Shown in pieces: positions 27,280 through 39,378 of a stretch of DNA of 48,967 nt. Within the stretch, counting starts at the first letter, position 1. Each line of letters opens with the position of its first letter. The notes beneath the pieces were generated by a model. The model made no database searches and had not been told where the DNA came from. It was given only the letters and a program-made list of their open reading frames with translations. The translations under genes and the position numbers were made by a program. Origin of the DNA: a virus; the IMG/VR virus record IMGVR_UViG_3300025086_000046, positions 1 through 48,967 of that record; one strand, given 5' to 3'.

Positions 27280-27385
27280 CACGAAAACAGAATCAAAAAC
27301 GAAAGGGTGTGACACTTATTCAAATGGGCGAAAGGTAGGACTGTTTGCCATCACGAACTGCCCATGGTAGAGTGTTAATAACTGC

Positions 27386-27636: not shown

Positions 27637-27667
27637 GTTCCTTTGACTCTTTAATAATACACGAAAA
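27637..27667 (-). repeat. 31-bp intergenic repeat, copy 1
   Basis: One of four identical 31-bp copies (others at 28726-28756, 29897-29927 and 35070-35100). On the minus strand it reads TTTTCGTGTATTATTAAAG then AGTCAAAGGAAC. It contains a -10 box (TATTAT) and the ribosome-binding site AAAGGA of the following gene. Confidence 0.9.
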
Positions 27668-27682
27668 GGACTGCTCTGGCAC
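27654..27682 (-). promoter_or_regulatory. Early-type promoter GTGCCA-17-TATTAT
   Basis: Minus-strand -35 GTGCCA (27677-27682), 17-bp spacer, -10 TATTAT (27654-27659) inside the 31-bp repeat. It drives the 80-residue basic protein. A divergent plus-strand promoter begins about 45 bp away. Confidence 0.7.
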
Positions 27683-27707
27683 TAATAACGGACGGTTCTA
27701 TAAGTGT

Positions 27708-27724
27708 CTCAGAGGTGCTCTGAG
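27708..27724. repeat. Perfect inverted repeat between two divergent promoters
   Basis: CTCAGAG and CTCTGAG are separated by three bases (7-bp perfect stem). It lies between the -35 of the minus-strand promoter (27677-27682) and the -35 of the plus-strand promoter (27727-27732). It could be an operator, or a hairpin if transcribed. Confidence 0.6.
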
Positions 27725-27726
27725 GA

Positions 27727-27756
27727 TTGCCAGATCTGGGTGGGGTGGTTTATAAT
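27727..27756 (+). promoter_or_regulatory. Plus-strand promoter TTGCCA-18-TATAAT
   Basis: TTGCCA (27727-27732), 18-bp spacer, consensus -10 TATAAT (27751-27756). It is one of only two plausible plus-strand promoters in the window and uses the same TTGCCA -35 as several minus-strand ones. Transcription would start near 27763. Confidence 0.5.
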
Positions 27757-27883
27757 GGGCGGCGGCACGATAGCGTGCGCGCTAAGACAACAAGACCCCG
27801 GCACATTTCATAAGACTTTAACACGAATTGAAAGGGAGTTAAATCATACTTTTGGATACTATCCAGAGAATGATTATCAATAA
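27755..27883 (+). CDS. Possible plus-strand small protein (42 aa) or RNA gene
   Basis: An open frame of 42 codons on the plus strand (MGGGTIACALRQQDPGTFHK, ending FGYYPENDYQ). The second half looks protein-like (TRIERELNHTFGYYPEN), and GGGGTGG about 7-13 bases upstream could bind the ribosome. Against it, the ATG overlaps the TATAAT box, so a transcript from that promoter would begin inside the frame. The stretch may instead make a short non-coding RNA containing the hairpin GCACG/CGTGC at 27765-27778. Treat as a candidate only. Confidence 0.35.
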   Translation: MGGGTIACALRQQDPGTFHKTLTRIERELNHTFGYYPENDYQ

Positions 27884-27937
27884 CAATAAAACGCTCGCTT
27901 ACATTTTTTTAAACGTTTTTTAATTGATTTACATACA

Positions 27938-27961
27938 TTTTACCCTATTTTTCGGGTAAAA
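27938..27961. terminator. Palindromic terminator TTTTACCC/GGGTAAAA
   Basis: A perfect 8-bp stem with an 8-base loop, 5 bases downstream of the 27966 stop on the minus strand. The A/T-rich stem ends make it usable in both directions, so it could also end a plus-strand transcript started at 27.76 kb. Confidence 0.65.
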
Positions 27962-27965
27962 GCAA

Positions 27966-28160
27966 CTATTTCAACAGTTCTGGATAACATTCCTCAACCT
28001 CTTCAATCAGTTCCGGAACGCTATACTTATCAAGATTTTCGTTAATCGTATCATATACAAATGCGTACATACTTTTATGATCCATGCCATCAATTAGTTC
28101 CTTAATATAGTCATCTTGGAGTTTATCACGATCGATGATGTTGTCCATGGTTTCAGTCAT
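27966..28160 (-). CDS. Small acidic protein (64 aa), unknown
   Basis: An acidic, helix-rich 64-residue product (MTETMDNIIDRDKLQDDYIK to VPELIEEVEECYPELLK). Another in-frame ATG at 28193 adds 11 residues; I prefer 28160 because the extra residues (MPFFHPNHTIT) look like untranslated leader, but neither start has a good ribosome site. The type resembles small hypothetical proteins I associate with cyanophage early regions (recollection). It is the last gene of the unit 28709-27966 and is followed by a strong palindromic terminator. Confidence 0.65.
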   Translation of the reverse strand: MTETMDNIIDRDKLQDDYIKELIDGMDHKSMYAFVYDTINENLDKYSVPELIEEVEECYPELLK

Positions 28161-28195
28161 TGTGATTGTGTGGTTAGGGTGAAAGAATGGCATAA

Positions 28196-28555
28196 TTATG
28201 CGAAGACGTATCCATTAGTGAAATCATCTACGTTGTAAACTTTAGACTGTCCTGCTTGACCAATAAAGCGACGAACATACCAGACAAAATTTTTCTGAAA
28301 TACTCCTTCACCAGTAACACAAAACTCATCACATAAAGCGTTGAGTCTGCTCTTGGTTGTATTAGACTGCCAACCGCCATCGAAGATTGTCACATCGTTA
28401 TCTGTAACCTCAGCGATAAGATTGTTGTGAAGGTAGACTTGAGTCACAACGCACTCCTTATCATCATTGAAAAAATTGATAGTGTGAGTGTTGCCAGACT
28501 TCCAATCCTTTTCGGACTTGATAGCAGCAATCATTTGTGATTCGATCTTACGCAT
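28196..28555 (-). CDS. Conserved-looking phage protein (119 aa), unknown
   Basis: A soluble 119-residue protein starting MRKIESQMIAAIKSEKDWKS. The middle is beta-rich (YLHNNLIAEVTDNDVTIFDG), followed by GWQSNTTKSRLNALCDEFC and an aromatic/basic stretch (FQKNFVWYVRRFIGQAGQS). It has the look of small early-region proteins in T4-like cyanophages; no enzyme motif is visible. It lies 40 bases after the 35-residue gene and ends just before the 64-residue gene, so the three probably share the promoter at 28743-28771. Confidence 0.8.
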   Translation of the reverse strand: MRKIESQMIAAIKSEKDWKSGNTHTINFFNDDKECVVTQVYLHNNLIAEVTDNDVTIFDGGWQSNTTKSRLNALCDEFCVTGEGVFQKNFVWYVRRFIGQAGQSKVYNVDDFTNGYVFA

Positions 28556-28601
28556 GATGAGTGAGGTTGTGAAGAATTGGTGTGAGTGAAAAAAGGAAGA
28601 A

Positions 28602-28709
28602 TCAGCGTAGTTTTAAATATCCGTGCTCAACTAATAAGTCGATGAACTTAATGCATTGGTTTCCAGTTTCCATTTGTGAGAGGTGCTTAAGCAGAGTGGA
28701 TCTTGTCAT
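28602..28709 (-). CDS. Very small protein (35 aa), unknown
   Basis: A 35-residue product (MTRSTLLKHLSQMETGNQCI to EHGYLKLR). It is the first frame after the early-type promoter and 31-bp repeat, with AAAGGAAC about 14 bases upstream of the ATG. Its amphipathic helical look (LLKHLSQM, FIDLLVEHGYL) supports a real peptide. Function is unknown. It is the first gene of the unit that continues to 27966. Confidence 0.6.
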   Translation of the reverse strand: MTRSTLLKHLSQMETGNQCIKFIDLLVEHGYLKLR

Positions 28710-28725
28710 ACTCGGTTTGAGGTGT

Positions 28726-28756
28726 GTTCCTTTGACTCTTTAATAATACACGAAAA
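28726..28756 (-). repeat. 31-bp intergenic repeat, copy 2
   Basis: Identical to the copy at 27637-27667. It holds the -10 TATTAT and the AAAGGAAC ribosome-binding site for the 35-residue gene. Confidence 0.9.
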
Positions 28757-28771
28757 CGAACCCTGTGGCGG
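28743..28771 (-). promoter_or_regulatory. Early-type promoter CCGCCA-17-TATTAT embedded in a terminator
   Basis: Minus-strand -35 CCGCCA (28766-28771) and -10 TATTAT (28743-28748) with a 17-bp spacer. The -35 lies in the loop and stem of the GAACCC/GGGTTC hairpin that follows the upstream gene. Confidence 0.7.
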
Positions 28772-28775
28772 GTTC
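28758..28775 (-). terminator. Hairpin GAACCC/GGGTTC
   Basis: A perfect 6-bp stem with a 6-base loop, about 20 bases after the 82-residue gene, followed on the minus strand by GTTTTCG. It overlaps the -35 of the next promoter. Confidence 0.65.
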
Positions 28776-28795
28776 AGTAGACAGATAGCAGACCG

Positions 28796-29044
28796 TCACA
28801 GGTCCGCCATCATTTCCTCCATTTCGGCACTATTGATGGCAGAGTCGTTCCATGCCACACCGTCGCCAGTCGTTTCAAGATGACGACCGATCTGCCCATT
28901 CATCATGCAGCGAACGAACTTCGTCCAAGGTGTGTCGCCTTCGTTCACATACTCAACGCATGCCTTAGCGGTGTTGTAGAGAAACTCATCGTTCTGGATC
29001 CACAGAGCAGCGTTCCAGGTTTCGTAGTTTGCCCAACCATTCAT
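28796..29044 (-). CDS. NYETWN-type small phage protein (82 aa)
   Basis: An 82-residue protein starting MNGWANYETWNAALWIQNDE. The N-Y-E-T-W-N motif followed by a hydrophobic helix marks a domain of unknown function common in phage and plasmid proteins (I believe the DUF7249 family, not checked). The rest is helical and acidic (MEEMMADL at the end). A ribosome site (CGGAGC) lies 8-13 bases upstream. It forms its own unit between two early-type promoters. Function unknown. Confidence 0.8.
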   Translation of the reverse strand: MNGWANYETWNAALWIQNDEFLYNTAKACVEYVNEGDTPWTKFVRCMMNGQIGRHLETTGDGVAWNDSAINSAEMEEMMADL

Positions 29045-29073
29045 GATGTTGCTCCGTTTGTTTGCTTGTGTGT

Positions 29074-29102
29074 ATTGTAGACCGTAGGGGGATCAGTGGC
29101 GA
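29074..29102 (-). promoter_or_regulatory. Early-type promoter TCGCCA-17-TACAAT embedded in a hairpin
   Basis: -35 TCGCCA (29097-29102), 17-bp spacer, -10 TACAAT (29074-29079). The -35 lies in the loop region of a perfect 7-bp hairpin (29092-29110) formed by the last codons of the preceding gene. It drives the NYETWN gene. Confidence 0.7.
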
Positions 29103-29110
29103 TCACTGAT
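29092..29110 (-). terminator. Hairpin ATCAGTG/CACTGAT at the stop codon
   Basis: A perfect 7-bp stem with a 5-base loop, formed by the last codons and stop of the 65-residue gene (stop at 29093-29095). No clear T-run follows. It overlaps the next promoter's -35 box. Confidence 0.5.
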
Positions 29111-29290
29111 GGACCAGTTCCCCCACTGTCCAGCAGGTTCCAGTCCAGCACGTACACGTTCACGATAGGCGGTCTCTGTTGCCATCTGACGTTTGATGCT
29201 CTCCATTGCTGCCATCATGACAGGTGAAGGATTAACAGAGGTCAGGAACATACCGTCAGCAGAGCGGGTGAGTTTGGTGGTTTTGTTCAT
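29093..29290 (-). CDS. Small protein (65 aa), probably leaderless mRNA
   Basis: A 65-residue product (MNKTTKLTRSADGMFLTSVN to NWSISDRH) with a basic start and a helical middle (AAMESIKRQMATETAYRERV). An in-frame ATG at 29305 overlaps the -10 box. The ATG at 29290 lies 6 bases after the TATTGT box, about where transcription should begin, so the mRNA may carry no leader; no ribosome-binding site is present. Function unknown. Confidence 0.7.
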   Translation of the reverse strand: MNKTTKLTRSADGMFLTSVNPSPVMMAAMESIKRQMATETAYRERVRAGLEPAGQWGNWSISDRH

Positions 29291-29296
29291 ATGTCT

Positions 29297-29325
29297 ACAA
29301 TACACGGAAACGAACCCTGTGGCGA
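29297..29325 (-). promoter_or_regulatory. Early-type promoter TCGCCA-17-TATTGT
   Basis: -35 TCGCCA (29320-29325), 17-bp spacer, -10 TATTGT (29297-29302). The spacer and -35 include the imperfect hairpin AACTC/GGGTT. The start codon is 7 bases downstream of the -10. Confidence 0.7.
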
Positions 29326-29330
29326 GTTAG

Positions 29331-29354
29331 TGTGACACTTATCCCAGTGTCACA
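29331..29354 (-). terminator. Perfect 9-bp hairpin TGTGACACT/AGTGTCACA
   Basis: A nine-base-pair inverted repeat with a 6-base loop. It includes the stop codon of the 43-residue gene (29350-29352) and immediately precedes the -35 of the next promoter. Confidence 0.7.
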
Positions 29355-29481
29355 TCCGGTCCATGCTACGTTGGATTGTTTCGTTACGTTCTTTCATGAT
29401 GCTCATCATGTCAGAATCGAGCAGGTCAATGAGAAGATTAGCACCTAACAAAATGACAATGGCAGAAAGAAAAATACGCAT
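29350..29481 (-). CDS. Small single-span membrane protein (43 aa)
   Basis: A 43-residue product starting MRIFLSAIVILLGANLLIDL. The first 20 residues form one hydrophobic segment (membrane anchor or signal peptide), followed by an amphipathic, Met-rich charged tail (DMMSIMKERNETIQRSMDRM). The probable location is the inner membrane. Function is unknown; small phage membrane peptides are often involved in lysis timing or superinfection exclusion, but nothing here proves that. Its stop lies inside a 9-bp hairpin. Confidence 0.65.
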   Translation of the reverse strand: MRIFLSAIVILLGANLLIDLLDSDMMSIMKERNETIQRSMDRM

Positions 29482-29524
29482 GAGTTTCAGTTAAGAATGT
29501 GTTCGTAATCGGTAGTTTTCATCA

Positions 29525-29692
29525 TCAAAATAAATTGGTCCAGCGTTCGTGTTGTATTTTGCTGATTCTGCCGTCACTGAGTAAACTATCACAAACACGA
29601 CAGAAAACCTCAAATTTTTCTATTCTGTCCATGTTAGGATCAACTCCGTTGGCAGTTTCACCGACAACCTTAAGTAAGTTGATTTTTAACAT
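29525..29692 (-). CDS. Small protein with a CRVC motif (55 aa)
   Basis: A 55-residue product (MLKINLLKVVGETANGVDPN to HERWTNLF) beginning 2 bases after the stop of the 63-residue gene, so translation is probably coupled. It contains FCRVCDSLLSDGRISKIQHE. The CxxC pair could bind metal, but with no second pair this is weak. Otherwise it looks like a small alpha-helical protein. No family is recognised. Confidence 0.65.
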   Translation of the reverse strand: MLKINLLKVVGETANGVDPNMDRIEKFEVFCRVCDSLLSDGRISKIQHERWTNLF

Positions 29693-29694
29693 GA

Positions 29695-29886
29695 TCACTC
29701 ACCCTCGGTTTCAGTTAGTTTGAAAATTGCGGAGATCTTATCACAAACCGCAAAATATGCACGGTCTTCAGTGTCATCCTCACCGAGGTGATCTTGATAC
29801 TCACTCAACGCACGATCAATGACACTCCACTCCGAATCAGTGAACAAACCTTTGTAAATTGTTGCAGACATTTCTTGTGAGGTCAT
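29695..29886 (-). CDS. Small acidic protein (63 aa), unknown
   Basis: A 63-residue helix-rich acidic protein (MTSQEMSATIYKGLFTDSEW to ISAIFKLTETEGE). It is the first gene after the 31-bp promoter/RBS repeat, with AAAGGAAC 10 bases upstream of the ATG. A second in-frame ATG five codons on is possible. The pattern FTDSEWSVIDRALSEYQDHL is a strong amphipathic helix. Function unknown; it shares a transcript with the 55- and 43-residue genes. Confidence 0.75.
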   Translation of the reverse strand: MTSQEMSATIYKGLFTDSEWSVIDRALSEYQDHLGEDDTEDRAYFAVCDKISAIFKLTETEGE

Positions 29887-29896
29887 TTTGAGTTTT

Positions 29897-29927
29897 GTTC
29901 CTTTGACTCTTTAATAATACACGAAAA
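29897..29927 (-). repeat. 31-bp intergenic repeat, copy 3
   Basis: Identical to the copies at 27637, 28726 and 35070. It carries the -10 TATTAT and the ribosome-binding site of the 63-residue gene. Confidence 0.9.
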
Positions 29928-29942
29928 CGGGATCAGATCAAC
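29914..29942 (-). promoter_or_regulatory. Early-type promoter TTGATC-16-TATTAT
   Basis: The -10 is TATTAT (29914-29919). The best -35 is TTGATC with 16-bp spacing (29936-29941) or GTTGAT with 17. This is one of two copies using a TTGA-type rather than GCCA-type -35. Confidence 0.65.
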
Positions 29943-29966
29943 CGATGATGGACACCTTACAGACCG

Positions 29967-30203
29967 TCACATTCCGTTCAGAAATTCGTGAAGTGCTTCA
30001 TCATACTCCTGCTGGGTTTCATACACTCTCCCATGAATGTTCAACGGAAAAGTTTTATCAATCCCAGCAACTGCAACGGTTTCACAATCAGCACGATCAT
30101 AACCCATTGATACCAAATTTTCGACGTAGGGGTTGTTGTGAATTTCCATAAGTTCTTTATCAGATTGGAGAGCGAAAGTGCAAGGGTCAGTGAACATCAT
30201 CAA
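29967..30203 (-). CDS. Small protein (78 aa), unknown
   Basis: A 78-residue acidic protein (MMMFTDPCTFALQSDKELME to QQEYDEALHEFLNGM). It contains YVENLVSMGYDRADCETVAVAG, which could be a small UBA-like helical hairpin; this is speculative. The first ATG overlaps the stop of the upstream 81-residue gene (30200-30203), so they are coupled. Its stop lies in a 12-base word (TGTGACGGTCTG) also found at the end of the 82-residue gene at 28796. Function unknown. Confidence 0.75.
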   Translation of the reverse strand: MMMFTDPCTFALQSDKELMEIHNNPYVENLVSMGYDRADCETVAVAGIDKTFPLNIHGRVYETQQEYDEALHEFLNGM

Positions 30204-30445
30204 CCTCCGAACATTTCATCGAACAGGTTATCAGCGTTCTTCGCTCTTTCTTCCCATTCTGTCATCTCTGCGTGGCGATCGAGTTGATCACGCATTGAAA
30301 CTAGTGCTTGTTGTTTAGCACGAAGTTTGTCAATTTCGACGTTGAGGTAGTGCAACTCGTTGTTAATCTGACAGCGGTCCATGTCATCAACTGTTGGCAT
30401 GTCGTAGATTGTGTTGTTGATTTTGCGAGGTTGAAGTTTGATCAT
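30200..30445 (-). CDS. Small coiled-coil protein (81 aa), probably leaderless
   Basis: An 81-residue protein (MIKLQPRKINNTIYDMPTVD, ending NADNLFDEMFGG). Residues 28-70 have coiled-coil character (ELHYLNVEIDKLRAKQQALV, then RDQLDRHAEMTEWEERAKN). The ATG at 30445 lies 6 bases after the TATTAT box and no ribosome-binding site is seen, so the transcript may start at the AUG. It overlaps the next gene by 4 bases. No family is recognised. Confidence 0.75.
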   Translation of the reverse strand: MIKLQPRKINNTIYDMPTVDDMDRCQINNELHYLNVEIDKLRAKQQALVSMRDQLDRHAEMTEWEERAKNADNLFDEMFGG

Positions 30446-30451
30446 GTGTTA

Positions 30452-30480
30452 ATAATACACGAAACCCACCACATTGGCGG
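30452..30480 (-). promoter_or_regulatory. Early-type promoter CCGCCA-17-TATTAT
   Basis: -35 CCGCCA (30475-30480), 17-bp spacer, -10 TATTAT (30452-30457). The -35 is in the loop of hairpin CCACCA/TGGTGG (30466-30489). The start codon follows the -10 by 6 bases. Confidence 0.7.
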
Positions 30481-30510
30481 AATTGGTGGACACTTCACGG
30501 ACTGTCCACC
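30466..30510 (-). terminator. Two overlapping, mutually exclusive hairpins
   Basis: Stem A is CCACCA/TGGTGG (30466-30471 with 30484-30489). Stem B is GGTGGACA/TGTCCACC (30485-30492 with 30503-30510), a perfect 8 bp. They share bases 30485-30489, so only one can form at a time. They lie directly after the stop of the 58-residue gene (30512). Confidence 0.6.
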
Positions 30511-30511
30511 C

Positions 30512-30688
30512 CTACTCCAAGACGAACGCTCGGACGTGGTAAGCGTGGGGAATCATTCGCTTCATCAATTCTTCACCTTCTGCTGAGTTAGTAACACTTT
30601 CTGGCAGACAGATAACCTCATCTGCTTGACGTGGATGCCCTGGAGATTCTAACCAGATCTCTCCGAAAAATTTTTTGTTCATCATCAT
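30512..30688 (-). CDS. Small protein (58 aa), unknown
   Basis: A 58-residue product starting at 30688 (three consecutive ATGs; any of 30688, 30685 or 30682 is possible). After MMMNKKFFGEIWLESPGHPR it continues QADEVICLPESVTNSAEGEE and ends YHVRAFVLE. Its first ATG overlaps the stop of the 39-residue gene (TGATG), so the two are coupled. The sequence looks like a small globular alpha/beta protein. Function unknown. Confidence 0.65.
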   Translation of the reverse strand: MMMNKKFFGEIWLESPGHPRQADEVICLPESVTNSAEGEELMKRMIPHAYHVRAFVLE

Positions 30689-30807
30689 CACAGTGCAAAT
30701 TCTTGAATGTAGTAATCAACTGTGATTTCGTACTTTGCTGCTTCTTCCTCGATGATTTCCATCAAAAGTTCATCTTTCATGATCTCTTGAATTTGCTTCT
30801 CAGTCAT
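30688..30807 (-). CDS. Very small acidic protein (39 aa)
   Basis: A 39-residue, highly acidic helical protein (MTEKQIQEIMKDELLMEIIE to DYYIQEFAL). The ribosome-binding site AAGGA lies 8-12 bases upstream of the ATG, and the gene follows a recognisable promoter by about 20 bases. Small acidic phage proteins are sometimes inhibitors or DNA mimics; here that is only a possibility. It overlaps the next gene (TGATG). Confidence 0.65.
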   Translation of the reverse strand: MTEKQIQEIMKDELLMEIIEEEAAKYEITVDYYIQEFAL

Positions 30808-30829
30808 GACGAAATCCTTGATCTTCTTT

Positions 30830-30858
30830 AAAATACCACGAAAAAACGTCCGTGGCGG
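30830..30858 (-). promoter_or_regulatory. Early-type promoter CCGCCA-17-TATTTT
   Basis: -35 CCGCCA (30853-30858), 17-bp spacer, -10 TATTTT (30830-30835). The -35 forms the loop and one arm of the short hairpin TCCG/CGGA, followed by a run of six Ts. Confidence 0.65.
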
Positions 30859-30884
30859 AAATTATGGACACTTAGATTAGTGTC
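30841..30884 (-). terminator. Tandem hairpins with T-run
   Basis: On the minus strand hairpin GACACT/AGTGTC (30867-30884, 6 bp, 6-base loop) is followed by the short stem TCCG/CGGA and six Ts (30841-30846). They lie 40-85 bases after the stop of the 54-residue gene. Confidence 0.6.
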
Positions 30885-30924
30885 ACACGATCACTACCAC
30901 GAACGCGGATCTGTGATCAATATA

Positions 30925-31089
30925 TTACCAGTCGTCGGTGAGATCTTCGACATGCACGCTCAAACTCTCTTGACCTTCGATGTCAAATAGTTTGTCCCAG
31001 TTGATGTTATATGGATCGAAATCATCCAAAACATCAAATTCAAGTGTGACCCGAAACTTTGATTTTTGTGGAATTGCTTGAGCGTACAT
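30925..31089 (-). CDS. Small acidic protein (54 aa), unknown
   Basis: A 54-residue product (MYAQAIPQKSKFRVTLEFDV to SVHVEDLTDDW) with a beta-hairpin-like start and an Asp-rich, aromatic C-terminus. It is the first gene downstream of a strong sigma70-type promoter and a late element, so it may be expressed early and late. A weak ribosome site (ACGAG) lies about 10 bases upstream. No family is recognised. Confidence 0.7.
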   Translation of the reverse strand: MYAQAIPQKSKFRVTLEFDVLDDFDPYNINWDKLFDIEGQESLSVHVEDLTDDW

Positions 31090-31122
31090 CGTAAGATCTC
31101 GTAGGGGTTGGTGAACTTAAGT

Positions 31123-31151
31123 ATGATACTCTCTCTGAGGACTCATGTCAA
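31123..31151 (-). promoter_or_regulatory. Strong sigma70-type promoter TTGACA-17-TATCAT
   Basis: The -35 is perfect (TTGACA, 31146-31151), the spacer is 17 bp and the -10 is TATCAT (31123-31128). It is the best consensus promoter in the window. It lies just downstream of a TATAAATA late element. Confidence 0.8.
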
Positions 31152-31163
31152 GTCTCAATAGAG

Positions 31164-31171
31164 TATTTATA
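31164..31171 (-). promoter_or_regulatory. Late promoter TATAAATA next to an early promoter
   Basis: A perfect TATAAATA on the minus strand, 13 bp upstream of the TTGACA box and 13 bases after the DUF4385 stop. A transcript from here would run through the early promoter into the 54-residue gene. Confidence 0.65.
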
Positions 31172-31184
31172 TCTCGTAGCGCGA

Positions 31185-31646
31185 TTATTCATTCTCGCGC
31201 CACGAACGTCGCATACGTTGATAATCAGGATCGTATGCTGCTTTATCTCGTACTACCTTGAAGATCTGCGCTGATCTCGCTTTGACATTCGTGAGGCAAT
31301 CTTCCTCACAGGGAGATATACTCCCATTTTTTGCATATTTGCGTCCCGAAGAGTGATTGGCGTAGCGTCTGGCACGAGTGAATCCCATCTCAAGGAATTT
31401 TCTTGCCATGTCCATACCAATGAAATCATCCCGTTGTTTATACTCACAGAACATTGAGTATATTTTATCAGAAGATTTAGTAGATGTTTCTTCATCTACA
31501 AATCTCCAATGAGAGCAAATGTCGTGAGTGTAAGGGCGTACCAATAACACTCCTTGCTCTCCCCTTCCAATACGATAAAGTTTGCGAGTTTCTGGATCTG
31601 TAAAATCAAGTTGTTTGTAATCCAGTTCATAGTCAAACTCTTTCAT
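31185..31646 (-). CDS. DUF4385-family protein (153 aa)
   Basis: A 153-residue protein with the recognisable DUF4385 pattern: FDYELDYKQLDFTDPETRKL then YRIGRGEQGVLLVRPYT; SHWRFVDEETSTKSSDKIYS; and DFIGMDMARKFLEMGFTRAR then RYANHSSGRKY. The family occurs in bacteria and phages and has no assigned biochemical role that I know of. The many conserved Arg/His/Gly residues suggest an enzyme or nucleic-acid-binding domain. It is the last gene of the operon that starts at 32643. No truncation is apparent. Confidence 0.85.
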   Translation of the reverse strand: MKEFDYELDYKQLDFTDPETRKLYRIGRGEQGVLLVRPYTHDICSHWRFVDEETSTKSSDKIYSMFCEYKQRDDFIGMDMARKFLEMGFTRARRYANHSSGRKYAKNGSISPCEEDCLTNVKARSAQIFKVVRDKAAYDPDYQRMRRSWRENE

Positions 31647-31841
31647 TTAATCAAAGACGGGAGAAATACGATGGCGCCATTCATACAAATGGTCTATGTT
31701 GTTTCCATAATAACCCATGTGCATGTAGATGCAATCAATGTAACGTAAATCATCATGATCTGCATAATACGTAAAGACATCACAGTATTCTACAATTTCT
31801 TGTGGAACTTCTACCTGTTTGTAATCATAATCAATTATCAT
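31647..31841 (-). CDS. Small protein rich in Tyr/Asp (64 aa)
   Basis: The start at 31841 (MIIDYDYKQVEVPQEIVEYC) is preferred over 31883 because the shorter form overlaps the upstream gene by only 11 bases and GAGGAAA lies upstream. The 64-residue product is acidic and aromatic (DVFTYYADHDDLRYIDCIYM). Its N-terminal YDYKQVEVP weakly recalls the YDYKxL start of the adjacent DUF4385 protein. Function unknown. Its stop abuts the ATG of the DUF4385 gene. Confidence 0.7.
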   Translation of the reverse strand: MIIDYDYKQVEVPQEIVEYCDVFTYYADHDDLRYIDCIYMHMGYYGNNIDHLYEWRHRISPVFD

Positions 31842-32031
31842 TTTCCTCTCTGTGTTTCCTCCACAACTCAGCAACCATATCAACTGGTTCTGTAGTTCGT
31901 TTGTGAATGTCCTCCTTGTGATTTAACCACTTGTCGATTGCTTCCTGTGTAGGAACAACAATTCTAACAGCGGTTCCCTCTTCTCCAAACTCTTTGTTCA
32001 TATCAATGTATGTTTGAGGAGTAATTTTCAT
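31831..32031 (-). CDS. Small protein (66 aa), unknown
   Basis: A 66-residue product (MKITPQTYIDMNKEFGEEGT to AELWRKHREENDN). It begins with a helix/turn, has a beta segment AVRIVVPTQEAIDKWL and ends in a charged helix. It overlaps both neighbours by a few bases, typical of coupled translation. No catalytic or membrane feature is seen. Confidence 0.75.
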   Translation of the reverse strand: MKITPQTYIDMNKEFGEEGTAVRIVVPTQEAIDKWLNHKEDIHKRTTEPVDMVAELWRKHREENDN

Positions 32032-32183
32032 TGATCCGGAACTGTGATGATGTATTTTGTAGAAGTTTCACCTCGGGAGTTAACACATCGAACACAATGC
32101 CATGATCCATTAGTTAGTTTTGACACACTATCCAATAGATTTCTAGCAATAATCCAGTTAGTTTGTTTTCTCCAATCACTCAT
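32028..32183 (-). CDS. Small basic protein (51 aa), unknown
   Basis: The ATG at 32183 (MSDWRKQTNWIIARNLLDSV) has AGGAC 7-11 bases upstream and overlaps the preceding gene by 8 bases; the longer in-frame start at 32243 would overlap it much more. The 51-residue product has a helical first half and a beta-like second half with WHCVRCVNSRGETSTKYIIT. A CVRC pair could bind metal, but there is no second pair. Function unknown. Confidence 0.65.
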   Translation of the reverse strand: MSDWRKQTNWIIARNLLDSVSKLTNGSWHCVRCVNSRGETSTKYIITVPDQ

Positions 32184-32388: not shown

Positions 32389-32391
32389 GAT

Positions 32392-32643: not shown

Positions 32644-32667
32644 TGGGGTGTTCTTCTCAACAAGTAC

Positions 32668-32696
32668 AATATAGACCCTTTGGCGGTCCTTGGCGA
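32668..32696 (-). promoter_or_regulatory. Early-type promoter TCGCCA-17-TATATT
   Basis: -35 TCGCCA (32691-32696), 17-bp spacer, -10 TATATT (32668-32673). The spacer holds a GACC-GCCAAA-GGGTC hairpin. It drives the six-gene operon 32643-31185. Confidence 0.7.
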
Positions 32697-32723
32697 GGGG
32701 TCTGAGACAGTTCTAGAAGTGTC

Positions 32724-34841: not shown

Positions 34842-34869
34842 TATGTAGAAGAATTAGGTGAAAATGTGA

Positions 34870-34884
34870 GAGTGAAGATCACTC
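34870..34884 (-). terminator. Hairpin GAGTG/CACTC at the stop of the 61-residue gene
   Basis: A perfect 5-bp stem with a 5-base loop, containing the stop codon at 34879-34881. A short T stretch (CATTTTC) follows on the minus strand, so it may terminate weakly. Confidence 0.45.
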
Positions 34885-35064
34885 AAAAGATGGAATCTTT
34901 GCTTTTGCTTCTGCCGCATACTTTTCAGAATAAACACCAGCAATCCACTCACTTTCAAGTTGTGTTGGTTGATCACCGTATCCAATTTGTGGACCGCCAT
35001 CAGTCTTCCGACCGACCCAAACGCGTTGACGGTCAGTGATGCGTGATGCTTGAGAGAGGATCAT
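34879..35064 (-). CDS. Small protein (61 aa), unknown
   Basis: A 61-residue protein (MILSQASRITDRQRVWVGRK, then TDGGPQIGYGDQPTQLESEW, ending AEAKAKIPSFE). It is a single-gene unit behind the fourth copy of the 31-bp promoter/RBS repeat; AAAGGAAC lies close upstream of the ATG. The Gly/Gln-rich centre suggests a small beta domain followed by a helix. Function unknown. Confidence 0.75.
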   Translation of the reverse strand: MILSQASRITDRQRVWVGRKTDGGPQIGYGDQPTQLESEWIAGVYSEKYAAEAKAKIPSFE

Positions 35065-35069
35065 GGTGT

Positions 35070-35100
35070 GTTCCTTTGACTCTTTAATAATACACGAAAA
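35070..35100 (-). repeat. 31-bp intergenic repeat, copy 4
   Basis: Identical to the three copies between 27.6 and 29.9 kb, although more than 5 kb away. It holds the -10 TATTAT and the ribosome-binding site of the 61-residue gene. Confidence 0.9.
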
Positions 35101-35115
35101 CGGGGGTCACTCAAC
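35087..35115 (-). promoter_or_regulatory. Early-type promoter TTGAGT-16-TATTAT in a terminator loop
   Basis: The -10 is TATTAT (35087-35092). The -35 is TTGAGT with 16-bp spacing (35109-35114) or GTTGAG with 17, lying in the loop of the GGGGGT/ACCCCC hairpin. Confidence 0.65.
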
Positions 35116-35141
35116 CCCCAGTGTGACACCAGTCGAACTGG
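35102..35141 (-). terminator. Two tandem hairpins after the 73-residue gene
   Basis: First on the transcript is ACCAGT/ACTGGT (about 35127-35141, extended by flanking bases), then GGGGGT/ACCCCC (35102-35119, perfect 6 bp) followed by GTTTTCG. This is a good rho-independent-like arrangement. Confidence 0.65.
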
Positions 35142-35363
35142 TCAGTCACTCAATTTTCCGCCGCGTCTGCGTTGACCGGGGGAATCAATAAGTTTATTAA
35201 CATAATCGTCCACAATTTCAGAACTCTTTAGACTCTGCACCATATATTCGGCAAAGTCTTCCATTTTGTCAGGGTGAATTGCTGTAATGTCTGTCTCTTC
35301 GACAGCAAGTTTTATTGATTCAATTTCCTGATCGGAGAGTTGTTTTTTGCGGTCGAAGCTCAT
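35142..35363 (-). CDS. Small acidic protein (73 aa), unknown
   Basis: A 73-residue helical acidic protein (MSFDRKKQLSDQEIESIKLA to DYVNKLIDSPGQRRRGGKLSD) ending in a basic Arg/Gly patch that could bind nucleic acid. It overlaps the 69-residue gene by 4 bases and is the last gene of a four-gene unit (35932-35142). No family is recognised. Confidence 0.75.
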   Translation of the reverse strand: MSFDRKKQLSDQEIESIKLAVEETDITAIHPDKMEDFAEYMVQSLKSSEIVDDYVNKLIDSPGQRRRGGKLSD

Positions 35364-35569
35364 TTGTCTGTCAATGGTGTGAGTGGTTCAATCTTTTCCA
35401 TTTCTTCCCATACTTTTTTAAAAGTATCGGAATCCCAGGTGTCTTGTGATTCTGGAGTATCCCAGAAATCCTCCCAATCTTTAGGAGAGTCCGTAACATC
35501 TTTTATACACTCTTCTCTATCAACTTTGATCTCATCAACGTAACATTCAACTTTATTAGCATCTATCAT
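35360..35569 (-). CDS. Very acidic small protein (69 aa)
   Basis: A 69-residue protein with about one third Asp/Glu (MIDANKVECYVDEIKVDREE, DSPKDWEDFWDTPESQDTWD, then TFKKVWEEMEKIEPLTPLTDK). The repeated Asp/Trp pattern is striking. Such acidity is typical of DNA-mimic or enzyme-inhibitor proteins of phages, but this is only a hypothesis. It overlaps both neighbours in the 35932-35142 unit. Confidence 0.75.
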   Translation of the reverse strand: MIDANKVECYVDEIKVDREECIKDVTDSPKDWEDFWDTPESQDTWDSDTFKKVWEEMEKIEPLTPLTDK

Positions 35570-35735
35570 TCTTAAACTCCTTACGACACTTCTTTAGTTC
35601 TTTAAGTTCGGTTTTAATCATTTGGTAAGCGTCTTCTGGACTGATACGCCTACTCATCTCCATTGCAATAGTAAACTCCACTCTGGTGCCAAAGTGTTTC
35701 AATGCCTCTTCAAAGCAGTTTAACTCTTCATACAT
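35556..35735 (-). CDS. Small helical protein (59 aa), unknown
   Basis: The start at 35735 (MYEELNCFEEALKHFGTRVE) overlaps the upstream stop region and is preferred to one three codons earlier. The 59-residue product is helical with a basic end (ELKELKKCRKEFKNDRC). The pattern FTIAMEMSRRISPEDAYQMI suggests a helix-turn-helix-like bundle, not confirmed. It overlaps the 69-residue gene by 14 bases. Confidence 0.7.
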   Translation of the reverse strand: MYEELNCFEEALKHFGTRVEFTIAMEMSRRISPEDAYQMIKTELKELKKCRKEFKNDRC

Positions 35736-35932
35736 TAGTACCACCTCTTTGTTTTAAGATATTCGAGAACATCTTCACGAACATCCATCAATTCATGATA
35801 ACACTTTTGATTGTGAGCGCAAGATCTTAATGTAGGATCTGGTTCAATGACAGATTCGATGAAAATGTCAAGTCCTCGATTCCATTTGTCTTTCTTAGAT
35901 TCGCCGGCAGGAATAGTGTTTTGATCTTTCAT
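35735..35932 (-). CDS. Small protein (65 aa), unknown
   Basis: A 65-residue protein (MKDQNTIPAGESKKDKWNRG, then DIFIESVIEPDPTLRSCAHN, ending LEYLKTKRWY). It starts a four-gene overlapping unit that follows the helicase by 28 bases. A TTAAATA element lies upstream. The C-terminal half is helical with Cys/His (RSCAHNQKCYHE), possibly metal-binding. No family is recognised. Confidence 0.7.
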   Translation of the reverse strand: MKDQNTIPAGESKKDKWNRGLDIFIESVIEPDPTLRSCAHNQKCYHELMDVREDVLEYLKTKRWY

Positions 35933-35950
35933 GAGATAAAGCGATTGGTA

Positions 35951-35958
35951 CTATTTAA
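35951..35958 (-). promoter_or_regulatory. Possible late promoter TTAAATAG
   Basis: The minus strand reads TTAAATAG in the short gap between the helicase stop and the 65-residue gene. It fits the late element form used at 25531, but is a short A/T motif and could be chance. Confidence 0.4.
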
Positions 35959-35960
35959 TG

Positions 35961-37127
35961 TCACCGACGAACGGTGGAGATTGCGGGTTGACCTTGGTTG
36001 AACACGGTATCAACAACTGCCTGAACGGATCTGGCAGTGCTGATGCCCACTCTATCATAAACAGGGACACAGACAAGCCCAAACGTCTTCTGGCGGTCGC
36101 CTAGACGGATCACCCGACCGATAGACTGACTGATACCAATGTAATCCATGTTTCGCATGAACAACACAGCTTCTAGTCCCTTGACATTCATACCCTCAGA
36201 CAGGATAGAGTGGTGAATAACCACAAATTTCTTGGAAGAATCCTGACCCCAAGTGTTCAAGGTGTCGAAGAACTCTCCACGACTGACTTTCTCACCGTCA
36301 ATGATTGCACCAGTCTTAGATGTGATCACCATCCAAGAATAACCACGGTCGAACAACTTAGAACAGAACAAAGATTCCTGAATAAGGTTGATGATCTGTT
36401 TGGTAGAACGTGCAGCAATCAGTATTTTGTTGAGAGAGTTGCTATCAATGGTGTCCAACAAATTCTTACAATCAGACTGTTTGAAATCACCCTGAGGCAA
36501 CTCCTGAACCACAACCTTAGGTGGCAAGATGTAACCCTCGTCAACCAGTTTGGGTGCGGGAACATTGCAAATCACCTGCCCATAGACAGCACCATCATTC
36601 ATTCCTGGTTTGAAGATGGTAAGAGAATGCTTAGGAGTAGCAGTAAAAAAGTAGCAACGATCAGCATCGTCAGAGAAGAACTCAGTAGCAGGGAAGAAGT
36701 TACGTTTGACGGAATTGTGTGCTTCGTCGAAGTAAATTGTATTGACTGAGATACCCGACTCCTGAACACGTCGCAGGGAATTGTAGGTAGTAAAGATAAT
36801 ACGATTACGTTTCCAAGTTTGCACCGCCCAGTCGTAGATATAGTCTGATTTAGTGGTAGATTCGTGATGAGTTTCTCCACTGTGAACATGAAGAACACGC
36901 ACCATAGGATCAGTGATGTGCTCTAGAAACTCAGATGAAAGTTGTTCCGCGAGAAGAATACGAGGAGCAACAACAACAATAGTCTGAGGAATATCACCAC
37001 TGAACAGACGCAAAGCATCAGTGATCATGGTGAGAGTCTTGCCACCACCAGTGGGCACGATGATTTGACCCTTGGAGTGAGTCAACATCGCGTCACATGC
37101 ACTTTGTTGATGGGGACGAAGTTGCAT
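35961..37127 (-). CDS. DEAD/DEAH-box (SF2) helicase (388 aa)
   Basis: A superfamily 2 helicase or translocase. It has Q-motif-like LRPHQQSACDAM (3-14), Walker A PTGGGKT (25-31), motif Ia VVVAPRILLAEQL (51-63), DEAH (134-137), motif III TAT (162-164), and motif VI QSIGRVIRLGDR (334-345) with the arginine finger. At 388 residues it has the two RecA-like domains and little else, shorter than T4 UvsW (about 500). Phage relatives remodel recombination or replication intermediates; the exact substrate is unknown. The ribosome site AGAAGG is 4-9 bases upstream. It has its own promoter embedded in the preceding terminator. Confidence 0.88.
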   Translation of the reverse strand: MQLRPHQQSACDAMLTHSKGQIIVPTGGGKTLTMITDALRLFSGDIPQTIVVVAPRILLAEQLSSEFLEHITDPMVRVLHVHSGETHHESTTKSDYIYDWAVQTWKRNRIIFTTYNSLRRVQESGISVNTIYFDEAHNSVKRNFFPATEFFSDDADRCYFFTATPKHSLTIFKPGMNDGAVYGQVICNVPAPKLVDEGYILPPKVVVQELPQGDFKQSDCKNLLDTIDSNSLNKILIAARSTKQIINLIQESLFCSKLFDRGYSWMVITSKTGAIIDGEKVSRGEFFDTLNTWGQDSSKKFVVIHHSILSEGMNVKGLEAVLFMRNMDYIGISQSIGRVIRLGDRQKTFGLVCVPVYDRVGISTARSVQAVVDTVFNQGQPAISTVRR

Positions 37128-37147
37128 AACCTTCTGTCGATGAATAT

Positions 37148-37176
37148 ATGATATAACAAAAAAGGGGACTCGGCGA
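37148..37176 (-). promoter_or_regulatory. Early-type promoter TCGCCG-17-TATCAT inside a terminator
   Basis: -35 TCGCCG (37171-37176), 17-bp spacer, -10 TATCAT (37148-37153), upstream of the helicase. The -35 is the loop of a strong GC-rich terminator hairpin and the T-run forms part of the spacer. Confidence 0.65.
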
Positions 37177-37183
37177 GCCCCCT
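37158..37183 (-). terminator. Rho-independent terminator after the DUF262-HNH gene
   Basis: On the minus strand AGGGGGCTCG pairs with CGAGTCCCCT (one mismatch/bulge), followed directly by TTTTTT. It lies 23 bases after the stop at 37206. It is the clearest intrinsic terminator in the window. Confidence 0.85.
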
Positions 37184-37205
37184 ATGACAGTTATTCAAGT
37201 GGTTA

Positions 37206-38549
37206 TCAGGAGATTGGGTTTCGACCCAGTTTCAGGTTGTCCTCAGTCTCCTGAATGGCACAGTTCTCATCATCATGTGTACTGCCACCATCAGCGTGAG
37301 GTGTAATGTGTCCACCTTGATAGACGCTGGGATCGAAGAGTTTACCCTTCTCGATCTCCTTACCTTCAGGAGTAACCCAGTCCTGGCGTACAGCGGCAAC
37401 AAACTTCTGTTCCTTCGTGAAAGAACGACGGTTGTCCAGTTGTGTGCAATAGGACTCGGGTTTCCAAGTGCGAGTGATAATCTCACGACGCAACTTGTTG
37501 AAGTTCGCCTCACGAGATCTCATGAGTTCCTTATAAGTCTTCCAACTCCCGTTGGCGTAACTGTAAGTATCAGAGTCAGTGAGTCGAGCAGCATGGGTCT
37601 TCATGTAGTCATCAATGAATCCTATAGGATTACTGATGTTGAAGTTGTTGTCCTTCAGATCCTTCATAACAGAGAAGAGGTCAAGAACACAGTTCTTGTT
37701 GGGAAGAGCATCAAGATTGTCACCCATGAATGTGATGAAAGACTTGAAGTCTGATGCAAACTTGCCAATGAGTTGGTCCTCAGTTGACCCGCACTCATAA
37801 GCAGACCACATGGACTTGTCGGAAATAGTAACACTCAGTCCATGGAAGTAGATGAGAGCAAGTCCAGCGATGAAGTCATCAACCTTACGACGATTGATGT
37901 CATTGGGTTTGAAGAACTTCTTCAATGTGCCCTCGTATGTAGTAGCAAGGTCACGGATAGTATTACAGAAGTCAGAGATAACAGCGTTACGCTTCTCAGG
38001 ACCGTTGAGAGAGATACCATCATTCATACGAATGAAGAGTTGAGAGAGTTGGCTGCGAGTAGCAACACTGATGACCTCAACAGTCACCACAGCATTCAAG
38101 AATGCTTTAAGAACTACATTAGGGAGAGTTTCGTAGGTGTCATTCTGACCCTCAATGATCTCAATAACTTGACCACAAATCTCATAAAAACCTGATTGAA
38201 TACCAAACTCATTGCGAATAAACTGGGAGAGAGTGGTTACACGGTTGTTGGAATCGATGTTCAGAAAATCAATACCGCGACCCTTCCAGAGTTTATAATA
38301 CTGTTTGTCCGCGGCAATCTTCGAAGTAATCTTGCAAGCGTCTGTAGAGGCAAGGATGAACTTGGAGGGTGCCATACCCAGAATCACTGAAGTGACGTAT
38401 GATTTCTTATTGTCAAGAGACCAGCGAACTCGGGATTGGAAGGAGTAATCAGCACGGGTCTTGGTTGCCATGTCTGACATGAAAGACTCGACCGAGTACT
38501 TGTAGAAATCCGATTGAATCGGAAAGAAAGCAATTGATTTAGTTGACAT
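37206..38549 (-). CDS. DUF262-like protein with C-terminal HNH nuclease motif (447 aa)
   Basis: The start at 38549 (MSTKSIAFFPIQSDFYKYSV) has AAGG 6-9 bases upstream; a longer frame to 38657 would read through the promoter. The N-terminal part fits DUF262 (ParB/GmrS-like): YSFQSRVRWSLDNKKSYVTS (35-54), a variant of the DGQQR motif as I98-D99-S-N-N-R103-VTTL, and LFIRMNDGISLNGPEKRNAV (171-190). The C-terminus has an HNH-type motif, GGHITPHADGGSTHDDEN (412-429). DUF262 plus HNH is the architecture of GmrSD/BrxU/SspE-type nucleotide-dependent nucleases, usually bacterial defence. In a phage it could cut competing or host DNA, or be a free-standing nuclease. Its role is inferred. Confidence 0.75.
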   Translation of the reverse strand: MSTKSIAFFPIQSDFYKYSVESFMSDMATKTRADYSFQSRVRWSLDNKKSYVTSVILGMAPSKFILASTDACKITSKIAADKQYYKLWKGRGIDFLNIDSNNRVTTLSQFIRNEFGIQSGFYEICGQVIEIIEGQNDTYETLPNVVLKAFLNAVVTVEVISVATRSQLSQLFIRMNDGISLNGPEKRNAVISDFCNTIRDLATTYEGTLKKFFKPNDINRRKVDDFIAGLALIYFHGLSVTISDKSMWSAYECGSTEDQLIGKFASDFKSFITFMGDNLDALPNKNCVLDLFSVMKDLKDNNFNISNPIGFIDDYMKTHAARLTDSDTYSYANGSWKTYKELMRSREANFNKLRREIITRTWKPESYCTQLDNRRSFTKEQKFVAAVRQDWVTPEGKEIEKGKLFDPSVYQGGHITPHADGGSTHDDENCAIQETEDNLKLGRNPIS

Positions 38550-38625
38550 TTTACCTTTTTTAGTAGGACTAGGTGGGTGTGACTTAGAGCAACCATACAG
38601 AGGTCGGTCATCCATCAACAAGGTC

Positions 38626-38654
38626 AATATACACTGGTCAGAGGTGGGTGGCAA
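38626..38654 (-). promoter_or_regulatory. Early-type promoter TTGCCA-17-TATATT in a terminator hairpin
   Basis: -35 TTGCCA (38649-38654), 17-bp spacer, -10 TATATT (38626-38631), upstream of the DUF262-HNH gene with a leader of about 70 bases. The -35 forms the apical loop of the hairpin at 38636-38664. Confidence 0.72.
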
Positions 38655-38664
38655 CACCCTGACC
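38636..38664 (-). terminator. Nested hairpin after the 67-residue gene
   Basis: Outer stem GGTCAG/CTGACC (perfect 6 bp) and inner stem GGTG/CACC, starting at the stop codon of the 67-residue gene. No long T-run follows. It overlaps the next promoter. Confidence 0.6.
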
Positions 38665-38867
38665 TATTTGATTTTCTTATGAATGAAGTTGACCGCACTT
38701 TTATGATCGCGGGAGACCTTCACCCAGTTGCCATTATTGATGATCGCAAGTTTTTTTGATCCTGCGATAGGAATGGCAGCCCACATTCCATCCTTTGTAA
38801 CATAAGGTCTAGTGTAAGGTTTGGGATTTAAAATACTATCCCATCGATTCATCTCACTGTAGTTCAT
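38664..38867 (-). CDS. Small basic protein (67 aa), unknown
   Basis: A 67-residue product (MNYSEMNRWDSILNPKPYTR to NFIHKKIK). I choose the ATG at 38867; a GTG six bases upstream is also possible. It overlaps the end of the metallopeptidase gene by 14 bases. The centre is beta-like with VTKDGMWAAIPIAGSKKLAI and WVKVSRDHKSAVNFIHKK, suggesting a small beta-barrel with a basic helix. Function unknown; probably translated with the metallopeptidase. Confidence 0.7.
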   Translation of the reverse strand: MNYSEMNRWDSILNPKPYTRPYVTKDGMWAAIPIAGSKKLAIINNGNWVKVSRDHKSAVNFIHKKIK

Positions 38868-39267
38868 ACTCACGAAACAATACGTTTTCTAATTCATGAG
38901 CCTCAATCTCATGAGGTTGATCCTCGTAATCGTAATTGTCCACGGGTTCTAGAGAATAACACAATTTACCGTAACGATGTCGCAAGTCACCACGAATCCA
39001 CTGTGTAACATGCACCAATTCATGGAATAGAGTTATGAGATACAACTCTCGATCCATATTTGCTTGCAGTTCAATGAGAAAATGTCGGGGACGATAACAG
39101 TCACCCACAACATCGCAGTAACCTACAACTCTATCACGTTTCAGTCCTTTGTGTTCAATCTCGACTAAAATCTTGTGACGTGGAAAATACTTTTTCAAAA
39201 ACCAAGAGGTAGCATCCTCACAGAGCTTTTTAGAATAACCGTATCCAGAATGACAGATGCTAGACAT
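38854..39267 (-). CDS. Zinc metallopeptidase-like protein, HExxH (137 aa)
   Basis: A small zincin-type protein. HELVH (82-86) within ITLFHELVHVTQWIRGDLRH supplies two zinc ligands and the catalytic Glu. A downstream QPHEIEAHELENVLF (117-131) can give the third ligand, a pattern seen in SprT-like and related short phage/bacterial peptidases. I use the ATG at 39267; an in-frame TTG at 39378 would read through the promoter. The first 20 residues lack a signal peptide, so it probably acts in the cytoplasm. Substrate unknown. It is co-transcribed with a 67-residue gene just upstream of the DUF262-HNH gene. Confidence 0.75.
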   Translation of the reverse strand: MSSICHSGYGYSKKLCEDATSWFLKKYFPRHKILVEIEHKGLKRDRVVGYCDVVGDCYRPRHFLIELQANMDRELYLITLFHELVHVTQWIRGDLRHRYGKLCYSLEPVDNYDYEDQPHEIEAHELENVLFREYELQ

Positions 39268-39349
39268 GTACCCCAGTGAAGAAACCAAATAAAAGATGAA
39301 ACAAAGACTAGCTTTTCTTTCGCTGTCATGGAGGAACGCGACTCCATCT

Positions 39350-39378
39350 AAAGTACCACCCTTGGCAACCCTTGGCAA
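39350..39378 (-). promoter_or_regulatory. Promoter TTGCCA-17-TACTTT for the metallopeptidase unit
   Basis: -35 TTGCCA (39373-39378), 17-bp spacer, -10 TACTTT (39350-39355, weak). The -35 lies in the loop of CCCTT/AAGGG, and a second GCCAAGGG copy follows. It is divergent from the plus-strand promoter at 39384. Confidence 0.5.

Follow-up and report, generated by a model that had tools for sequence, protein, structure and literature searches.

Candidate PeSL-type promoter-terminator cassettes between the small genes of a T4-like cyanophage

Genomic setting and promoter boxes

The DNA analysed here (the window) is the 48,967-base IMG/VR virus record IMGVR_UViG_3300025086_000046, arranged as in a T4-like marine cyanophage. 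Its genes include those for baseplate wedge proteins of the gp25 and gp6 types, a protein of 4033 residues, a helicase, and a nucleotide-sugar epimerase. At the DNA level, the closest named relatives are Synechococcus and Prochlorococcus phages, which match it piecewise only. The subject of this report is a series of minus-strand sites in the hyperplastic small-gene region, which extends from the tail-fibre genes to gp25/gp6. At these sites predicted promoters, in a subset combined with predicted terminators, stand between small genes on the coding strand. An Rfam search of the window at the gathering threshold returned no family match. T4-like cyanophages are abundant in the sea. The control of their early transcription has been described as unsettled (PMC2984593).

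An earlier note on this DNA had listed 13 minus-strand -10 boxes, ten of them preceded at exactly 17 bp by a -35 box of the GCCA/GCCG type. All 13 boxes are present, the positions given in the note being those of the last base of each hexamer; the first T, used here to name each site, lies 5 bases higher (27659, 28748, 29079, 29302, 29919, 30457, 30835, 31128, 32673, 35092, 37153, 38631, and 39355). The sequence NNGCC[A/G] is located exactly 17 bp upstream at ten of them (27659, 28748, 29079, 29302, 30457, 30835, 32673, 37153, 38631, and 39355). The same number is returned by a search for GCC[A/G]-N17-TANNNT on the minus strand between 27 and 40 kb, as compared with 15 matches in total for the remaining 19 spacings in the range 8-27 (0-3 each, ~0.8 per spacing). 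At spacing 17, the control searches with GCCR-N17-TANNNT report one match on the plus strand and none on the rest of the minus strand. Two features had been overlooked: a further module, with the first T of its -10 box at 27279, and a conserved element directly upstream of the hairpin. The modules and the hairpin-bearing composites are given below, with the score of the weight matrix built for the module family and the hairpin energy with its p value from shuffles.

28726-28800, minus strand: full module at 28748 (score 71.0; hairpin -9.9 kcal/mol, p=0.007); palindrome-like element 28777-28800 adjoining the hairpin; predicted terminator hairpin TGAACCC(GCCACA)GGGTTCG then TTTTCG, 28757-28776; -35 CCGCCA 28766-28771; -10 TATTAT 28743-28748; leader with ribosome-binding site AAAGGAAC
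35070-35144, minus strand: full module at 35092 with upstream element and leader (score 69.5; hairpin -12.3 kcal/mol, p=0.013); predicted terminator hairpin TGGGGGTT(GAGT)GACCCCCG then TTTTCG, 35101-35120; -35 TTGAGT 35109-35114 (16 bp spacer); -10 TATTAT 35087-35092
37148-37183, minus strand: composite terminator-promoter candidate at 37153, outside the leader-conserved family and upstream of the helicase gene (-14.6 kcal/mol, p=0.003); hairpin AGGGGGCTC(GCC)GAGTCCCCT then TTTTTG, 37163-37183; -35 TCGCCG 37171-37176; -10 TATCAT 37148-37153
30452-30509, minus strand: composite at 30457 (score 24.2; hairpin -7.7 kcal/mol, p=0.087); upstream element GTGGACAGTCCGTGAAGTGTCCAC 30486-30509; hairpin TCCGCCA(ATG)TGGTGGG then TTTCG, 30465-30481; -35 CCGCCA 30475-30480 in the 5' arm; -10 TATTAT 30452-30457
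29897-29971, minus strand: module at 29919 with weak hairpin, upstream element, and conserved leader (score 77.8; -2.4 kcal/mol, not significant); -35 TTGATC (16 bp spacer); -10 TATTAT 29914-29919
27637-27711, minus strand: module at 27659 without significant hairpin, with conserved leader (score 57.7; p=0.59); -35 GTGCCA 27677-27682; -10 TATTAT 27654-27659
29297-29354, minus strand: module at 29302 with upstream perfect inverted repeat TGTGACACTgggataAGTGTCACA (score 17.8; -4.1 kcal/mol, p=0.16); -35 TCGCCA 29320-29325; -10 TATTGT 29297-29302
30830-30887, minus strand: module variant at 30835 with upstream element GTGTGACACTAATCTAAGTGTCCA, short weak hairpin, and T6 run (score 17.9; p=0.14); -35 CCGCCA 30853-30858; -10 TATTTT 30830-30835
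27274-27331, minus strand: module at 27279 without hairpin (score 30.9); AAGTGTCACAC element; TTTTCGTG; -10 TATTGT 27274-27279

A family of modules in Synechococcus phages

The block TTTTCGTGTATTATTAAAGAG occurs in four mismatch-free copies in the window, and its 16-base core is present in 67 IMG/VR stretches. A 69-base module query retrieves 62 Synechococcus phage records, and among the matches listed no annotated gene lies beneath it. From the retrieved loci, 107 distinct modules align gaplessly into a profile, in which positions are numbered from the first T of the -10 box. Its fixed features are an upstream element at -52 to -29 (TGTGnCAGTTG...AAGTGTCCAC), a -35 box between -23 and -17, CGTG and T-rich positions ahead of the -10 box, the -10 box TATTAT itself, and then TAAAGAGTCAAAGGAAC with the ribosome-binding site; ~90% of the modules have their start codon at +27 to +35. 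The -10 box and leader were the means of finding the modules, and their conservation is therefore in part an effect of this selection; that of the upstream element is not. The family was scanned with a weight matrix instead of a covariance model, because it is defined by sequence and register and not by a shared stem. The matrix returned zero opposite-strand matches in any scanned locus. The small-gene regions of twelve relatives also hold modules, mostly between tail-fibre/2OG genes and gp25/gp6. What is new here is this module family, with more than 100 variants across T4-like Synechococcus phages.

The -35 boxes of the family are most often of the TTG class with a 16 bp spacer (54 out of 121), followed by the CCCAC type (31 out of 121) and GCC (12 out of 121). 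The fixed 17-bp geometry put forward in the earlier note thus applies to the GCC-type boxes of this phage but not to the wider family, and GCC at 17 bp is more typical of this phage than of the family as a whole. Among the relatives, TTG[AC]CA-N17 forms a clear peak, with 34 and 54 matches as compared with ~5-8 at other spacings. The leader block was also found once in bacterial/archaeal species genomes (L199, 6613-6635), on a 24.6 kb contig labelled Rhodobacteraceae that is possibly a misbinned cyanophage contig.

Hairpins within the promoter spacer

Six out of the 14 promoter sites of the window possess a hairpin of -7 kcal/mol or lower with its 3' arm in the spacer, while 0.9 are expected from shuffles. 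Only 28748, 30457, 35092, and 37153 are terminator-like, exhibiting a T-rich tail and a -35 box within the loop or stem. Sites 29079 and 38631 have a hairpin and are devoid of a T-tract, and hence are not terminator-like; hairpins are weak at 27659, 29302, 29919, 30835, and 31128, and absent at 32673. The 29302 hairpin has decayed as compared with that of 28748, its 5' arm being altered. That the GCCA box lies in the loop or stem of a hairpin at most sites, as had been proposed, is therefore too strong, although the four terminator-like sites do place their -35 box there; among the five hairpins singled out as clearest, those at 37163-37183, 28757-28776, and 30465-30481 are terminator-like, whereas those at 38636-38664 and 29092-29110 lack the T-tract.

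Across the family, hairpins of -9 kcal/mol or lower occur in 17 out of 107 modules versus 1.9 in dinucleotide shuffles (9-fold), and hairpins of -5 or lower in 33 versus 13.6. Their loops lie mostly inside -23 to -16, and their stems are unrelated in sequence, yet stand in the same register. Such hairpins are also seen, independently of this family, in canonical TTG[AC]CA-N17-TANNNT promoters of the same loci, 8 out of 79 distinct ones having a hairpin of -10 or lower where 0.25 are expected (~30-fold). In several of these, TTGAC(A) coincides with the loop and a run of T precedes the -10 box, as in AAGGGAGA(TTGACAT)TCTCCCTT, which is followed by TTTTTATG and TAAATT. In stems with a single non-Watson-Crick pair, G-T is found 6-7 times and A-C 0-2 times, which fits folding in RNA of this strand. 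This signal resides in the position before the -10 boxes and not in the overall number of terminator-like sites, which between 25 and 42 kb is not clearly above shuffles (17 versus 11.9, standard deviation 4.1). The idea that an RNA stem is what all copies have at their core was rejected, since most copies are without a strong hairpin.

These figures bear on the view that the hairpins are incidental, repeated promoter cassettes having GC-rich -35 surroundings that fold by chance. Two-thirds of the modules with the same -10 box and leader lack a strong hairpin, as do several window sites that have none at all, in keeping with this view; however, the 9-fold and ~30-fold excesses, the common register of unrelated stems, and the bias of G-T over A-C make it unlikely.

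The earlier note also suggested that the hairpin could gate polymerase binding, either in the nascent RNA or as a cruciform extruded from the DNA. In the strong cases the -35 box does lie physically inside the inverted repeat. However, a strong hairpin is seen in only ~1/3 of the modules, the others having the same promoter sequence, so the promoter does not need it; the tolerance of G-T pairs and avoidance of A-C point to RNA and not to a cruciform, and the promoter DNA is left unoccupied by the RNA transcribed from upstream. Packing alone sets the position of the -35 box. A stem arm of 8-9 bp and a U-tract, which a terminator needs, add up to 16-17 bp, the length of a sigma-70 promoter spacer; when the spacer doubles as 3' arm and U-tract, the -35 box falls in the loop, and no gating assumption is needed. 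Gating thus finds no support and is highly unlikely.

A palindrome at a fixed distance from the promoter

Upstream of the hairpin, a conserved imperfect palindrome, GTGnCAGTTGnnnnAAGTGTCCAC, ends 28 bp before the -10 box. Its information reaches 1.45 bits, and no gap separates it from the -10 box in the alignment although the intervening bases vary freely. When only the upstream element is searched for, a TG-TANNNT -10 box is found at exactly +28 in 44 out of 78 distinct matches, and at +27 or +29 in 3. The arms are of several types without covariation, GTGCCA occurring together with TGTCCAC 18 times and with TGGCAC 5 times, and the mismatches comprise seven A-C and one G-T. The 5' arm shifts by 1-2 bases, making the pair counts in the ungapped registers -80 to -84 uninformative. 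Because the arms do not covary, the mismatches are A-C rather than G-T, and the distance to the -10 box is fixed, the palindrome is suggested to be a DNA site; the reading of this inverted repeat as an RNA hairpin was set aside on the same arms and mismatches.

Relative to the predicted start, the palindrome occupies about -64 to -41 and is possibly an activator site. A tentative extension is that GTGnCAGTTGnnnnAAGTGTCCAC may be an operator, its undescribed activator coming from the phage or the host and defining a dedicated early (or middle) promoter class in which a poor -35 box would be usable and the spacer would be freed to double as a terminator. The palindrome would then be the regulatory centre of the cassette: a dimeric protein of phage or host origin would bind there and switch on early promoters whose -35 boxes are poor, and the overlaid terminator would be a secondary economy. 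The fixed register, the arms and mismatches unlike those of an RNA stem, and the presence of the palindrome ahead of a TTGACA promoter in phage Syn9 are in favor of such an activator. On the other hand, the binding protein is hypothetical, common descent of the cassettes could have kept the spacing, and the region folds to a lower energy than its shuffles do, leaving room for an RNA role. The activator claim alone is thus possible but rather doubtful; it is compatible with the reading of the cassettes preferred below.

In Syn9 (DQ149023), three predicted promoters have an upstream half-site (43130-43170, 44791-44832, and 46307-46347), one of them with a plain TTGACA box. A transcriptome of Syn9 infection has reportedly been published. 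The family is a defined and countable set of promoters with exact predicted start sites, Syn9 included, that can be checked against existing data. A TGTCCAC half-site also stands ahead of a TATAAT box at 125354-125394 of G002, the near-complete 174 kb record of L129.

Gene swap junctions at module ends

Isolates of phage S-RIM8 are ~99% identical and differ by single-gene replacements. Two of these swaps begin 21-26 bp past the -10 box of a module, that is, at the module 3' end (8450 and 10032 in L081), while most use no module. Over all loci, the right ends of high-identity alignments lie 20-40 bp past a module -10 box in 20 cases, as compared with 2.3 expected. These junctions and alignment ends support, but do not prove, recombination at the cassettes, which would explain how genes in the small-gene regions turn over so fast.

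If we assume that the modules are mainly recombination cassettes, kept alike as crossover points with promoter and terminator functions as passengers, the junctions and the excess of alignment ends are accounted for, as are near-identical modules in otherwise unrelated phages. Nonetheless, most S-RIM8 swaps involve no module, and the boxes and their spacing match exactly what a promoter with its ribosome-binding site would have, something not demanded by recombination alone. This explanation is quite unlikely.

Other sites of the window

The remaining promoter-like sites are listed here.

29074-29110, minus strand: promoter-like site at 29079 with a hairpin but no T-tract, one T in its tail (-7.3 kcal/mol, p=0.023); hairpin ATCAGTG(ATCGC)CACTGAT 29092-29110; -35 TCGCCA 29097-29102; -10 TACAAT 29074-29079
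38626-38659, minus strand: promoter-like site at 38631 without T-tract (hairpin p=0.07); -35 TTGCCA 38649-38654 inside hairpin GGGTG(TTGC)CACCC 38646-38659; -10 TATATT 38626-38631
39350-39378, minus strand: promoter-like site at 39355 with direct repeat TTGCCAAGGGTTGCCAAGGG (p=0.14); -10 TACTTT 39350-39355
32668-32696, minus strand: promoter-like site at 32673 with direct repeat CGCCAAGGACCGCCAAAGGG and no hairpin; -35 TCGCCA 32691-32696; -10 TATATT 32668-32673
31123-31151, minus strand: ordinary sigma-70-type promoter TTGACA-N17-TATCAT, no significant hairpin

The 39355 hairpin arises from the direct repeat and is not terminator-like. This repeat (39355-39378) and that at 32673-32696, both on the minus strand, exhibit a 10-base period across the -35 region and could be an operator of their own type. 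Immediately upstream of the TTGACA-N17-TATCAT promoter lies a T4-late-like TATAAATA (31123-31170, minus strand), and the leader of this promoter, CTTAAGTTCACCAACCCCTACGA, is identical in another contig (L029, around 3207). Lastly, a candidate ordinary terminator, comprising a strong 16-pair hairpin and a T-run, follows the last tail-region gene at 39480-39514 (minus strand) and separates the structural genes from the small-gene region.

A model for the cassettes

We read the sites, with a probability of about 0.82, as PeSL-type cassettes of a T4-like cyanophage, PeSLs (promoter-early stem-loops) being composite promoter-terminator motifs of T4-like phages: each would be a host-type early promoter, overlaid in a subset by an intrinsic terminator. 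The cassette would fill the space between two small early genes, stop codon of the first to start codon of the second, and hold a sigma-70-like early promoter and a ribosome-binding site. In the subset, the 16-17 bp spacer would also serve as 3' stem arm and U-tract, with the -35 box in the loop or the upper 5' arm, so that the upstream transcript would end at the U-tract just before the -10 box and the new one start ~20 bp further. Each small gene or group of genes would thereby get its own insulated transcript. The palindrome GTGnCAGTTGnnnnAAGTGTCCAC is most likely a DNA site that aids RNA polymerase at the often weak -35 boxes, and the near-identical repeated cassettes may also act as the sites of crossover when genes are swapped in the hyperplastic region. 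What the sequences show directly is the geometry, the hairpin excess, the conservation, the position between genes, and the swap junctions; the activity of the promoters and terminators, their early timing, the function of the palindrome, and recombination as the origin of the junctions are predictions. The compact terminator-plus-promoter module of the earlier note is well supported for the hairpin-bearing copies, by the hairpin excess, the U-tract, the preference of G-U over A-C wobble, the fixed register across unrelated stems, and the fixed distance to the start codon.

Several points weigh against this interpretation. Only ~1/3 of the modules have a hairpin of -5 or lower, and the terminator is thus no constant part of the module. 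The U-tract of the family is short (TTTTCG), and many -35 boxes are poor (CCGCCA, CCCACA). Early timing is deduced from the neighbourhood and the promoter type, and part of the excess of alignment ends at modules may come from gene boundaries, which are favored anyway, and from alignments lengthened by the conserved modules. In Synechococcus elongatus, only a minority of mapped RNA ends resemble intrinsic terminators (PMC13289151). In favor of this interpretation, the hosts are devoid of Rho, which makes intrinsic terminators the known route (PMC13289151). With Rho missing and only a minority of the RNA ends of this model cyanobacterium accounted for by intrinsic terminators, phage terminators that work in these hosts are of practical interest.

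Comparison with known systems

Short repeated intergenic elements of another tailed virus, the halovirus HF2, have been shown to be promoters (PMC8707807). HF2 resembles the present phage in its short intergenic repeats and differs in being an archaeal virus with an archaeal promoter type; the abstract of that paper reports no terminator overlay. T4-type early promoters, with the -35 consensus GTTTAC (PMC1524935), share with the predicted promoters of the modules the use of host polymerase, GT-rich bases before the -10 box, and a position upstream of small novel genes. However, the modules lack the GTTTAC box, their classes being TTG, CCCAC, and GCC. The T4 alt/mod genes, which favor T4-type early promoters, are absent from cyanomyoviruses (PMC2984593).

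The closest likeness is to PeSLs, which have been described as mediating gene shuffling in T4-like phages (Arbiol 2010 and Comeau 2014, as cited in PMC4503421). Common to both are a composite of early promoter and terminator stem-loop between the small genes of the hyperplastic region, and repeated similar copies; gene exchange at the cassettes is possibly a further one. In the window, the -35 and -10 boxes of the sigma-70-like promoters are 16-17 bp apart, eight modules are present, four of them sharing a 21-base block exactly, and a stem-loop with GC stem and U-tract is joined to the promoter in a subset. The PeSL papers (Arbiol et al., Comeau et al.) reportedly deal with the phage pairs RB49/phi1, T4/PST, and KVP40/nt-1. 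Phage nt-1, reportedly one of those of the 2014 paper, contains in 25 kb three composites of the same layout, e.g. GGGTTGAC(AGAT)GTCAGCCCTTTTTTG-TATTAT, with the -35 box within the hairpin and a 17-18 bp spacer made up of 3' arm and U-tract. In RB49 the overlays are related but not the same, the hairpin lying in the spacer or surrounding the -10 box. The view that no element of this form had been described is therefore wrong.

The cyanophage modules nevertheless differ from PeSLs in their sequences, their GCC, TTG, or CCCAC -35 boxes, the fixed upstream palindrome, the conserved leader GAGTCAAAGGAA, and the absence of a strong hairpin from most copies; their weight matrix returns no match in 30 kb of RB49 or 25 kb of nt-1. 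According to a 2015 cyanophage paper, the ORFan region of S-PM2 is devoid of the dense PeSLs of other T4-like phages, and PeSLs were judged too sparse there to explain the region (PMC4503421). Contrary to the view expressed for S-PM2, the present family extends PeSL-type cassettes to cyanophages, as a new variety of this type of element and not a new kind.

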